Below the pieces are notes generated by a model. It had not been told where the DNA came from and made no database searches. It saw nothing but the letters and a program-made list of their open reading frames with translations. A program made the translations under genes and the position numbers. Shown piece after piece: positions 4,637-53,483 of a DNA stretch of 64,000 nt (the first letter of the stretch is position 1; the number at the start of each line of letters is the position of its first letter). The stretch comes from Methanoregula boonei 6A8. Lineage in GTDB: Archaea; Halobacteriota; Methanomicrobia; Methanomicrobiales; Methanospirillaceae. The DNA lies in NCBI RefSeq assembly GCF_000017625.1, contig NC_009712.1, forward strand, positions 1,860,001-1,924,000. The letters are read 5' to 3'.

Positions 4637-4766
4637 TGCTGCGAGTGGGTTACGATCCCACGATCTCCAGATGTCCCAGGTATCTTATCGCGCAAAAACC
4701 GGATTGTTTTTGCGCTCCAATAAAACCCTATGAGTCTGGCGCCCTAACCAGCTAGGCCACCGCAGC
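4637..4766 (-). tRNA. tRNA-Met elongator (CAT) with a 56-nt intron
   Basis: Minus-strand exon 1 is 4729-4766 (38 nt, ending CTCATA) and exon 2 is 4637-4672 (36 nt, starting ATCTGG). Together they make a full cloverleaf with acceptor GCTGCGG/TCGCAGC, anticodon stem CCAGA/TCTGG and anticodon CAT. The intron 4673-4728 sits at the canonical 37/38 position and contains a perfect 10-bp hairpin (GCGCAAAAAC/GTTTTTGCGC), consistent with a bulge-helix-bulge substrate for the splicing endonuclease. RtcB, which joins such exons, is encoded at 12.7-14.1 kb. Confidence 0.93.
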
Positions 4767-46072: not shown

Positions 46073-46433
46073 GTGCGATAACACCTCAAGGTTCGGCCCA
46101 TGACGGGCTACATTCCTTTGTAACGGGACGAATCCCGCGGTTCTATAGAATTGGATAAGGGGGATATTAAAGTACGCAGGCCATTTCACAAGCACTTCAC
46201 TGACAAGGAGACCACACTTTCCCGAAGGGATTTCTGCTGCCGCCCCGAAGGAGTACTCCTGCAGCGGCTCAATTACCCGCTAAAATCTGCTCCGGCAATG
46301 GGTAGCACAAAACCCGATAAGGAATTTTGCGCGTAGGGATATCACAGGGAGGAGCACAGCGGCCGGGGCAAAACCCCCAAGAGAAGCACTTTGGGATAAT
46401 AGTGAGAGACAAACAAAAAAATGTTGACGAAAC
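46073..46433. other. gene-free stretch of 361 bp before L15e
   Basis: No ORF is supported. It must contain the superoperon promoter: on the minus strand TTTAATATCC (about 46166-46175) is a TATA-like box roughly 95 bp before the L15e start. It also has CCGAAGGGATTTC and CCGAAGGAGTACTCC repeats of modest length near 46214-46260. Nothing else is evident. Confidence 0.45.
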
Positions 46434-50271: not shown

Positions 50272-50536
50272 GGACGTCCAGAGTATTGTCATTAAGACCC
50301 CGAAGGGGAACTGGGTTTTTGATGAGGCAGAAGTGACCGTGATGACCATGCAGGGGTCCACCAGTTACCAGGTCACGGGCACCCCGCACTTTGAGGAAGC
50401 GGCAGTCGAGATTCCTGCTGAAGACATCGCGATGGTGGCCGAACAGGCACAGGTGCCGCCAGAGAAGGCAAAAGAGGCGCTTGTCGCCACCAGGGGCGAT
50501 ATCGCTGAAGCGATCGTGAAACTTTCCTCGCCATGA
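50195..50536 (+). CDS. nac: nascent polypeptide-associated complex protein
   Basis: This 113-residue alpha-NAC homologue binds ribosomes and nascent chains. It has a NAC domain (NPRQMKTMMKKLGMQVEQIEDV, IKTPKGNWVFDEAEVTVM) and a C-terminal UBA domain (DIAMVAEQAQVPPEKAKEAL). ATG 50195 (MLPGNINP) matches the family; GTG 50186 is also in frame. It overlaps the PUA gene by 77 bp and the trmI start by 4 bp. Confidence 0.94.
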   Translation: MLPGNINPRQMKTMMKKLGMQVEQIEDVQSIVIKTPKGNWVFDEAEVTVMTMQGSTSYQVTGTPHFEEAAVEIPAEDIAMVAEQAQVPPEKAKEALVATRGDIAEAIVKLSSP

Positions 50537-51258
50537 TCGAAGCCGGCGATCGTGTCCTTTTAGTCGGCGCAGGAAGGGAATTTTTTGTCCGCGCCGGCCC
50601 GGGAAAACTCTCAACCGACAAGGGCCAGCTCGAGCTTGAACCGCTGGTCGGTGCGGCCCCGGGCGATGTTTTTACTACCCATACGGGACAGGAGTTCGTG
50701 CTCCGGCTCCCGCGCCCGACAGACTTTTTCGTGCACGGCAAGCGTTCGGGAGCCCCGATGCTCCCCAAAGACATCGGCCTTGTGATCGCGTTTACCGGGA
50801 TGAACAGGAACGACGAGGTGCTTGACGCCGGCACCGGCAGCGGAATCGCTGCGATCTATTTTGGAGGGATCGCAGCACATGTGAAGACCTATGAGGTCAG
50901 GCCAGAATTCTCGGCGCTCGCGGCAAAGAACATCAAAGAAGCAAAACTCGAAAACGTGGAGGCTGTCGCTGCTGACGTGCTTACCGCGGAGGGCATCTAT
51001 GATGTGATCCATCTCGATCTGCAAATCGAGACGGCGCACGTTGACTTTGCCTGCGACCACCTCCGGGCCGGGGGATACATGGCCTGCTACACGCCATTCC
51101 TGGAACAGATGGCGATCGTTGTCGATGCTGCGCAGGCACGGTTCCCTGAGGTCCATACCCACGAGCTCATCGAGCGTGAGATGACCCGGTCCAAGAGGGG
51201 AACCCGGCCCTCAACAAGCGTGAGCCATTCGGGGTATATCACGATTGCAAGGAAATAG
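50533..51258 (+). CDS. trmI: tRNA (adenine-N1)-methyltransferase TrmI
   Basis: This 241-residue class I methyltransferase has a small N-terminal beta domain, the substrate region TDFFVHGKRSGAPMLPKDIG, SAM motif VLDAGTGSGIAAIYF and motif IV VIHLDLQ. It makes m1A at position 57/58 of archaeal tRNA. Its ATG overlaps the NAC stop (ATGA). Stop codon TAG. The last conserved region RSKRGTRPSTSVSHSGYI agrees with the family. Confidence 0.92.
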   Translation: MIEAGDRVLLVGAGREFFVRAGPGKLSTDKGQLELEPLVGAAPGDVFTTHTGQEFVLRLPRPTDFFVHGKRSGAPMLPKDIGLVIAFTGMNRNDEVLDAGTGSGIAAIYFGGIAAHVKTYEVRPEFSALAAKNIKEAKLENVEAVAADVLTAEGIYDVIHLDLQIETAHVDFACDHLRAGGYMACYTPFLEQMAIVVDAAQARFPEVHTHELIEREMTRSKRGTRPSTSVSHSGYITIARK

Positions 51259-51295: not shown

Positions 51296-51321
51296 TTTTT
51301 CCAACTTCCCGGGATTTATAT
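51296..51321 (+). promoter_or_regulatory. promoter of the 47-codon ORF
   Basis: TTTTTCCAACTTCCCG followed by GGATTTATAT gives a BRE/TATA-like element with TATA at 51315-51321; a start of transcription about 25 bp on would lie near 51343. The same block recurs at 51655-51680. Confidence 0.6.
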
Positions 51322-51377
51322 CGCGGCCGGGTCCACAGAGGATCAGCGGATATACCCGCTAAAAGGAGGATACCATA

Positions 51378-51521
51378 ATGCTCACCCAAACCATTGGCAC
51401 AATTATCAACGAAACGATTCCGGCCCGCCACACCATTCCCCCTGCCATCCACCTGGCAGGAATCCTGCTCCTTATCGCAGTTACCGCAGTGTGCGGACCG
51501 CTCTCCGCAGTTCTCCCTTAA
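51378..51521 (+). CDS. short single-helix membrane protein, 47 residues
   Basis: Starts ATG 51378 and stops TAA 51519-51521. The Shine-Dalgarno AAGGAGG lies at 51362-51369, about 8-9 nt before the ATG, and a TATA box lies 57 bp upstream. The protein has a polar N-terminus (MLTQTIGTIINETIPARH) and one hydrophobic segment, HLAGILLLIAVTAVCGPLSA. The leader contains a small hairpin AGCGG/CCGCT directly before the ribosome site. It belongs to no family I recognise and is too short for usual gene callers. Signals for expression are better than for many annotated genes. Confidence 0.65.
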   Translation: MLTQTIGTIINETIPARHTIPPAIHLAGILLLIAVTAVCGPLSAVLP

Positions 51522-51653
51522 ACCTTTAGATCTCTCCTCTCTTTTCCTGTTCAATACCCGGTCAGATTCACCTCAAAATTGCCGGGAAAGCGTGTATCTC
51601 ATGGCACCGCTGGTGACCCGGGAATGCCACCCCGATGGAAACAACGGAGCCAC

Positions 51654-51680
51654 TTTTTTCCAACTTCCCGCGCTTTATAA
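51654..51680 (+). promoter_or_regulatory. second copy of the same promoter block
   Basis: TTTTTTCCAACTTCCCGCGC then TTTATAA (51674-51680) matches the 51296-51321 block in 22 of about 26 positions. Transcription would start near 51700-51706, exactly where the hairpin series begins. Confidence 0.55.
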
Positions 51681-51699
51681 CCAGCCCTGCCCAACCCAT

Positions 51700-52040
51700 G
51701 GATCAGGCCTGCAGGAATACCACAGACACGTGGAACCATTCTGCAGGCCCACGCGGAAAGGATACCCGCGTGGCATTCCCCTCATCTCATACCGGCAAAC
51801 CCGGTGGTCCGGTACAGCAGCAGACCCAAAGGGAAAACCTTCCCTGACCTCCCCTTCGGGTCCTGTCCCCCGGATCCATGCGCACGGTTCCGGAAACGGG
51901 GAGGAGAAAATGACCCCAGACATTTCAAGCCTCCTCCAAAGCCCCATACCTGGTTGCTCCAGACTCCCCGTTCCCGGTAATTGCGCAAGTACCGGCGTTT
52001 TGTTCTCCCGATATTTTGTTCTGCCTTGCCGCAGGTACGG
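51700..52040 (+). ncRNA. candidate structured RNA of unknown type
   Basis: No credible protein is encoded. Consecutive inverted repeats are strong: GGCCTGCAGGAAT (51706-51718) with ATTCTGCAGGCC (51738-51749); CACGCGG (51750-51756) with CCGCGTG (51766-51772); TACCGG (51790-51795) with CCGGTA (51809-51814); further GC-rich complementary segments follow (GGGAAAACCTTCCC near 51831-51844; ACCTCCCCTTCGGGT). Together with the promoter this suggests a stable RNA. SRP RNA and RNase P RNA signatures were looked for and not found. Length and strand are uncertain. Confidence 0.45.
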
Positions 52041-52052
52041 CCAAAAAAGAGA

Positions 52053-53483
52053 TTAATCCCGTACCGGGTGGCTGTTCTTGTCCCCGCGCCCGATTCCCTT
52101 GTACACGAACCCGGCAGCAATCCACGGGTCCGGGTCAATGAGGTTCCGACCATCCACGACGACCGGGTGTTTTTTGCCGCTCAGCTTTTTTACCTGCCGG
52201 GGGTCGAGCGAGCGGTACTGGCGGTGGCCGGCAAAGACAACCACGGCATCTGCGCCCCGGATCGTTTCATCGATGGAGGGGGTGAGCGTGATGCCCGGCG
52301 CATGCTCCACGTACGGGTCGTGGAGGGTAACGTGTGCCCCAGCTGCAAGCAGCTCGTCCCGGTACGGCTCTGAGGGGGTGTTCCGGGTGTCATCGGAGTT
52401 TGCCAAAAATGCCCAGCCAAGGAGTGCAATCCTTGCCCCTGCAAGCGGCGTACCTACCCGGGCAAGGCCTTCCCGGGTGAGGCGGAGCATGTGCCGGGGC
52501 ATGAAATCATTGATCCGCCGGGCAAGTACAAAGAGCGAGGGCTCGCCTGCCGGGTAATCCAGCTGATCCTTTCCCAACTGCTGCACCCCGCGTTCCAGGT
52601 GGTAGGTGTCCTTGGTCAGGCAGTGGCCGCCAACGCCGGCGCCCGGCCAGAGCATGGCCCGGGTGATCCCCTCGCCCTTGAGGCTGTCGATCCCGGTCCG
52701 CACATCATAGAAGTTGATCCCCATTGCCTCGCAGTAGAGGGCAAGCTCGTTTGCCGCTGCGATCTGGAGATCGCGGAAGGTGTTCTCCGCGGTCTTGGTG
52801 GCCTCTGCCGCGGTCGCGCTCATCGGGATCACCCTGCCGGTTGTCAACACAGGAGAGTACAGCTCGGTTGCCCTTGCTGTGCTCACCGGGTCGATCCCGC
52901 CCAAGATCCGGTCGTGCTCCCGGATATTCCGCAGGAGCCTGCCCACCATCACCCTTTCCGGGGCATGGGCGAGCGCAAAATCTTTGCCCGCAACAAGGCC
53001 GGACTCCTCTTCGAGCATCTGCCGGGCCGGTCCTTCCGTTGTCCCCGGGGTGATGGTGGATTCGAGCACCACAAGCATCCCGGGCCGGAGGTACTTTCCG
53101 ACATTCCGGATTCCTTCATACAGGGCAGAGAAATCTGGGATCAGGTCGTCCTTGTTCGCAAACGGCGTCTGGATCGAAAGGGTAACTGCATCGAGCCCGG
53201 CGATCTTCGAGAAATCCGGGGTGCACGCGAACTTTCCTGCCCCCACCACTTTTTTGAGCAGGTCCTCAAGGCCCGGCTCCTCGCCTTTGAGCGGGCTCTC
53301 GCCACGATTGAGCATCGCGATCTTGTATCCCGAAGATGGCGAATCCCGCTGGAAGCCGTACACGTGAGAGAACTGAGAGGCATCGGCAAAAAGGGCAGCA
53401 GCCGGGATGCCGACGTATCCCATGCCGAGCACACCGATCTTTTTAATCGGGCCGCGGCCCCTGATGAGATCCGCAAGGGTCAT
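52053..53483 (-). CDS. UDP-N-acetylhexosamine 6-dehydrogenase (WecC/WbpA type)
   Basis: This 476-residue nucleotide-sugar dehydrogenase oxidises C6 of a UDP-HexNAc to the uronic acid. The N-terminal Rossmann fold is IGVLGMGYVGIPAAALFA, the catalytic Cys is in GVGGHCLTKDTYH and the C-terminal binding domain starts ARIALLGWAFLANSDDTRNTPSE. UDP-ManNAc or UDP-GlcNAc dehydrogenase activity is most likely. Its ATG overlaps the next gene upstream by 4 bp. It ends a three-gene operon with a 3-dehydrogenase and an aminotransferase. Confidence 0.9.
   Translation of the reverse strand: MTLADLIRGRGPIKKIGVLGMGYVGIPAAALFADASQFSHVYGFQRDSPSSGYKIAMLNRGESPLKGEEPGLEDLLKKVVGAGKFACTPDFSKIAGLDAVTLSIQTPFANKDDLIPDFSALYEGIRNVGKYLRPGMLVVLESTITPGTTEGPARQMLEEESGLVAGKDFALAHAPERVMVGRLLRNIREHDRILGGIDPVSTARATELYSPVLTTGRVIPMSATAAEATKTAENTFRDLQIAAANELALYCEAMGINFYDVRTGIDSLKGEGITRAMLWPGAGVGGHCLTKDTYHLERGVQQLGKDQLDYPAGEPSLFVLARRINDFMPRHMLRLTREGLARVGTPLAGARIALLGWAFLANSDDTRNTPSEPYRDELLAAGAHVTLHDPYVEHAPGITLTPSIDETIRGADAVVVFAGHRQYRSLDPRQVKKLSGKKHPVVVDGRNLIDPDPWIAAGFVYKGIGRGDKNSHPVRD

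Follow-up and report, generated by a model that had tools for sequence, protein, structure and literature searches.

We analyzed a stretch of 64,000 nucleotides (the window) from the closed 2,542,943-bp genome of Methanoregula boonei 6A8, a methane-producing archaeon from a peat bog. Our subject is the spacer between a tRNA methyltransferase-like gene and a convergent nucleotide-sugar dehydrogenase. The dehydrogenase forms a sugar-nucleotide operon together with a MocA-type oxidoreductase and a DegT aminotransferase. An initial annotation of the spacer had suggested a stable regulatory or housekeeping RNA. The features of the locus are:

50533-51258, upstream of the sRNA region: tRNA methyltransferase-like gene (trmI; Pfam GCD14)
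51296-51322, + strand: sister promoter TTTTTCCAACTTCCCGGGATTTATATC of a small-protein gene, from the promoter alignment
51378-51521, + strand: gene for a small protein of 47 amino acids whose C-terminal half is hydrophobic, behind the sister promoter and separate from the RNA
51637-51668, + strand: operator GGAAA-N14-TTTTCCAACTTCC, common to other promoters of the genus
51673-51680, + strand: TATA box CTTTATAA of the sRNA promoter, from its sequence and from identical spacing across the aligned promoters of this class
51701-52020, + strand: predicted small non-coding RNA, from promoter geometry, folding (z = -3.16), non-coding codon usage and a syntenic ortholog
52053-53483, - strand: nucleotide-sugar dehydrogenase, convergent and downstream of the sRNA region

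The 47-aa ORF is clearly coding, as its codon usage has z = 4.4 (the reference for this score is the 41 genes of the window). It has no match in Pfam. An ortholog of this protein is found in a metagenome-assembled genome (MAG) from SPRUCE peat (contig G009:C175, L002), behind the same type of promoter but at a different genomic place. Elsewhere in the window, Rfam models matched a tRNA of 130 nt at 4637-4766 (- strand) that ARAGORN did not report, which is probably an intron-containing tRNA gene, and the eL15-Euryarchaeota ribosomal protein leader (RF03144, 39.5 bits) at 46085-46137 (- strand).

The initial annotation placed a TATA box at 51674 and a transcript starting behind it, and the sequence agrees: the box spans 51673-51680, so transcription is expected to start near 51700. 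In the aligned promoters, the spacing from the operator half-sites to the TATA box and to the GATCA start is constant. The pattern GGAAA-N(12-14)-TTTTCCANNTTCC occurs at 24 sites in 14 of the 39 Methanoregula genomes and at none in the reversed control, and nearly all of the 24 sites have the identical spacing (GGAAA-N14-TTTTCCANNTTCC). Judging from its promoter, the predicted sRNA is a member of a regulon with a common operator, so it would be made under one particular condition only. The two half-sites lie at a fixed spacing just upstream of the TATA box, which suggests that the regulator is an activator.

Downstream of the other copies of the operator are STAS-domain proteins, small proteins of about 49 amino acids, and other short ORFs. 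The transcripts for the ~49-aa proteins start with a GATCAGGCC hairpin leader. The sRNA region shares the operator, the TATA box, the GATCA start, and the 5' hairpin with these small-ORF transcripts; a Shine-Dalgarno (SD) sequence with a short coding ORF directly 3' of the hairpin was not found in either the window or the ortholog.

Other members of this promoter class also caught our attention. Unannotated small-protein families of ~49-57 amino acids (L003, L004, L065, L074, L075, L224, L238, and L240) have the same promoter and the conserved 5' hairpin, with motifs such as ALNGFEALP..EKQWFLIR and DPSLFSLWQLLNATPLPSL. At G006:C16:164162-164700 (L073/L078), two tandem paralogous transcripts have the same operator, no evident ORF, and a terminator-like hairpin each; these are possibly further sRNAs of the regulon.

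The 5' end of the RNA would be at GATCAGGCC. The 3' end is not sharp; termination is likely at the T-rich tracts at 51996-52021, and the region continues into the convergent dehydrogenase gene. The predicted elements within the RNA, all on the + strand, are:

51706-51749: 5' hairpin of 11 bp directly after the start, from the fold; other transcripts of the class likewise have GATCAGGCC and a hairpin
51750-51772: second hairpin, from the fold; does not align with the ortholog
51791-51805: hairpin, from the fold
51806-51876: third, branched hairpin, from the fold; does not align with the ortholog
51890-51977: conserved stem-loop domain, with arms at 51890-51903 and 51964-51977 and the 25-nt element in its loop
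51920-51949: predicted pairing region with an S-layer mRNA leader (ACATTTCAAGCC at 51920-51931, TCCTCCAAAG at 51932-51941, AGCCCCATAC at 51940-51949)
51928-51952: conserved loop element AGCCTCCTCCAAAGCCCCATACCTG of 25 nt, or AGCCUCCUCCAAA[G/A]CCCCAUACCUG in the two species, which contains the 16S anti-SD core

The fold also has a long stem-loop at 51879-51986, so the at least three strong hairpins in a row that had been noticed by eye are indeed predicted from the start onward (51706-51986). For the + strand of 51700-52050, the predicted folding energy is -127.6 kcal/mol (z = -3.16 versus dinucleotide shuffles), and the - strand of the same region folds equally well (z = -3.26). Because both strands fold alike, folding energy does not by itself choose the strand; the promoter does. 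For the same reason, we did not take folding energy to prove that there is an RNA.

A covariance search with Rfam 15 did not match any known family at the gathering score, and at E ≤ 10 there were only two spurious matches below 15 bits. This excludes SRP RNA and RNase P RNA, as the initial annotation had surmised. Its view that the region codes for no plausible protein also holds: the open frames in it have non-coding codon usage, in contrast to the neighboring 47-aa gene (z = -0.1 for a 48-aa ORF at 51910, 1.1 for a 108-aa frame from GTG at 51730, and 1.8 for a 49-aa ORF at 51698; the ORF in the ortholog has z = -0.2).

One ortholog was found at the syntenic place, on a 7,077-bp contig (JACTVF010000121.1; G009:C440, L007) of Methanoregulaceae archaeon SPRUCE.2016.34.maxbin2.041, the SPRUCE peat MAG. 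It adjoins the orthologous dehydrogenase (87% identity) in the same convergent arrangement, and the distance from the promoter to the 25-mer is 276 nt in the window and 291 nt in the ortholog. The two spacers can be aligned at the promoter, at GATCAGGCC, and over a block of 38 nt, and have diverged everywhere else. The 25-nt element is identical at 24 of 25 positions, whereas the two genomes differ at 41% of third codon positions. At this divergence, one change or fewer in 25 nt has p of about 4e-5 at a given place. The single G/A change is nonsynonymous in the only shared frame, and it removes a base pair in the ortholog without compensation.

A DNA search of 40 relatives gave only pieces of the promoter and one 25-nt match. 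Searching 39 genomes for the 25-mer (allowing 3 mismatches) and with a covariance model found the two known copies and one chance match. (In the alignment behind the model, the variable loop section is padded with N because MAFFT did not align the left arm.) Synteny with TrmI in 37 genomes gave no useful further orthologs, and among 80 loci with the dehydrogenase in GTDB genomes, the element was in the SPRUCE MAG only. With just two copies in 39 genomes, the RNA would have arisen recently or been retained in few lineages, and the evidence from covariation stays thin until there are further orthologs.

The flanks of the 25-mer form a strong duplex in both species. In the window, the flank duplex has -37.3 kcal/mol versus -21.8 ± 3.6 for shuffled flanks (z of about -4.3; 1 of 2,000 shuffles was as strong), and in the ortholog it has -31.8 versus -16.1 ± 3.1 kcal/mol (z of about -5.0; 0 of 2,000). 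The alignment with the ortholog shows compensatory changes as well: among 11 aligned stem pairs, three have double compensatory changes, one has a single change (GC/GU), and none is broken. If the partner is slid by -1 to -3, +2, or +3 columns, there are no double changes, and at +1 there is one. With only two sequences, the covariation rests on the three double changes, and a control on it (control a) gave 62/500, with little power. The pairing probability in the outer stem is 0.56-1.0 and mostly above 0.8, and the middle of the loop element is predicted to be mostly unpaired in both species.

The original suggestion is supported in its regulatory form. A regulatory RNA is favored by the lack of an Rfam match, by the non-coding codon usage, and by a syntenic ortholog that keeps the promoter, the 25-nt loop element, and the compensatory stem. 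A housekeeping role is unsupported, because the RNA is in only 2 of the 39 genomes of the genus and is driven by a common operator. We consider it likely that the region is a genuine non-coding RNA.

The conserved loop points to a possible target. The genome contains the 16S 3' end ...ATCACCTCCT (GCGGCTGGATCACCTCCT), whose core is contained in the loop (CCUCCUCC). In both genomes, TTTGGAGG is found before the ATG of two orthologous pairs: mcrB and a gene for a 941-aa protein. The latter is an S-layer glycoprotein (NF041431, 1061 bits with a cut-off of 600, plus PGF-CTERM). Upstream of this gene (L265:3555), the leader matches the 60-nt terminal loop in perfect blocks of 12 + 10 + 10 nt. The complements in the leader are GTATGGGGCT for block A, GGCTTGAAATGT for block C, and the SD sequence CTTTGGAGGA for block B, so the loop has a 10-nt perfect complement to the S-layer SD. 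The blocks sum to 32 nt, of which A + B or A + C can pair together in antiparallel fashion while B and C are mutually exclusive.

Among 813 leaders (about a third of the genome), the next best sum after the S-layer leader's 32 nt is 18 nt; the S-layer leader was first noticed by its TTTGGAGG before the ATG. Shuffled loops never reached 32 nt (0 of 10,000), also with the anti-SD held fixed. The ortholog pair keeps blocks of 9 and 8 nt, and if the anti-SD is fixed there, the second block is not significant (651 of 10,000, p = 0.065). The 12-nt complement ACATTTCAAGCC (51920-51931), which adjoins the conserved element in M. boonei, is absent from the ortholog. Extended anti-SD matches alone, used as a screen for targets, gave no more hits than the reversed control.

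Structure predictions suggest that block A (the GUAUGGGG site) is buried in a hairpin of the leader (unpaired probability 0.02) and that block B is roughly half accessible in M. boonei, with lower accessibility in the ortholog. When the loop domain and the leader are cofolded, the gain is just about 2 kcal/mol. Given the buried block A and the small gain, an effect may depend on a helper protein or on co-transcriptional pairing.

The S-layer leader has some features of its own. Its ~120 nt (L265:3435-3554; L244/L245) are near-identical in two species that differ by 41% at third positions. At its start is a strong hairpin, and the 5' arm of this hairpin (CUCCUCCAUA) could pair with the SD as well; the leader has no match in Rfam. 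This leader may be a regulatory switch in its own right.

We propose that the locus gives rise to a small RNA of about 310-320 nt that acts in trans and would be transcribed from the operator-bearing promoter and expressed only in a particular condition. A stable 5' hairpin would open the RNA, and the long stem near its 3' end would present a single-stranded loop with the anti-SD CCUCCUCCAAA followed by CCCCAUAC. The loop could base-pair with the S-layer mRNA, masking its ribosome-binding site (SD CUUUGGAGGA) and also binding GGCUUGAAAUGU and GUAUGGGG farther upstream in the leader, and the expected outcome is less synthesis of the S-layer. As the loop is complementary to the start of the S-layer mRNA, the RNA probably controls the amount of the coat protein. 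An inducible sRNA that masks this ribosome-binding site and lowers S-layer synthesis is our best explanation of the sequence evidence, and we rate its chances as about even. We are similarly balanced on the narrower point that the S-layer mRNA is the main target and is repressed.

In Methanosarcina mazei, sRNA154 and sRNA41 mask ribosome-binding sites (PMC5867862, a review of Prasse 2017), and sRNA162 does so by pairing a single-stranded region with the mRNA (PMC3510493). Like sRNA154, which is an intergenic methanogen sRNA with condition-specific expression and an anti-RBS loop that masks the RBS of its target (PMC5867862), our candidate is predicted to have these features; however, sRNA154 is from another genus, is under nitrogen control, and also stabilizes mRNAs (PMC5867862), and we compared the two by description. 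sRNA41 also represses translation by masking ribosome-binding sites, but it targets the ACDS operons (PMC5867862; again compared by description). In sRNA162, the pairing region is a linker instead of a stem-capped loop, and it also acts in cis on the neighboring mRNA (PMC3510493). The alpha-r14/NfeR1 sRNAs of Rhizobiales are similar in that the anti-SD loop CCUCCUCCC is invariant while the stems diverge (PMC10746234), but they are bacterial and have three copies of the loop (PMC10746234), and we do not expect any relationship. The M. boonei region, with its predicted transcript, has its own promoter and non-coding codon usage, and its modeled fold shares with the RBS-masking class a mostly unpaired loop complementary to the RBS of the putative target. 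By analogy, the best reading of the M. boonei RNA is an RBS-masking sRNA with the mechanism of sRNA41, sRNA154, and sRNA162. It would be a new, previously undescribed sRNA of a known mechanism class.

A real non-coding RNA with the same loop might have other main targets. It could be a general anti-SD RNA acting on mRNAs with strong SDs such as mcrB, it could act on genes outside our sample of leaders, or its 3' part could be antisense to the convergent dehydrogenase. We take this to be a realistic possibility, if a doubtful one. In both species, mcrB has TTTGGAGGA before its ATG, a 9-nt match to the loop, but this is one block only. The loop would suit many SDs, yet TTTGGAGG sites are not generally enriched in the genome (11 versus 8 in the reversed control). 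The RNA does end close to where the dehydrogenase gene ends on the opposite strand, and in the S-layer leader site A is hidden by structure; on the other hand, that leader is a far outlier among the 813.

The region might instead be the mRNA for a small protein with a long structured leader, namely the 48-aa ORF at 51910 (51910-52053) after GGGGAGGAG. A majority of the transcripts of this promoter class do encode short ORFs behind the GATCAGGCC hairpin, this ORF has a strong SD, and SLLQ[SN]PIP can be read in both species. We think this is unlikely: codon usage is non-coding in both species (z = -0.13 and -0.20), the ortholog has no ATG with an SD at the matching place, the similarity is limited to 8 residues, and the predicted fold has the SD of the ORF paired with the loop. 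Also, the sole change in the 25-mer is nonsynonymous in the 51910 frame, with no third positions changed. That the hairpins are by-products of a GC-rich spacer, with neither transcription nor selection, would fit the equal folding of the two strands, the mostly unconserved spacer, and the absence of the RNA from 37 of the 39 genomes. However, the operator-bearing promoter is conserved, the 25-mer is at a similar distance from it, and the stem covaries, so we view this as quite improbable. Least probable by far is a functional RNA on the minus strand, with the 25-mer as an SD stretch: this strand of the window reads TTTGGAGGAGGCTTGAAATG, but the ortholog lacks the start codon, while both species retain the + strand promoter.

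Targets are known for few archaeal sRNAs, and in a literature search we found no report of one that acts on an S-layer mRNA. Our preferred reading, the RBS-masking sRNA on the S-layer mRNA, comes with a defined loop, a named predicted target site, and an operator, and the operator also points the way to a not yet described transcription factor and to a group of small proteins. More tentatively, a genus-level regulon with a palindromic operator might switch the envelope of Methanoregula through small proteins and STAS proteins, and a peatland lineage might have recruited to it an sRNA that turns down the S-layer glycoprotein by multi-block pairing with a strongly conserved leader able to form rival structures. 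If the proposal is true, the principal protein on the surface of a peatland methanogen would be tied to some stress or growth signal.
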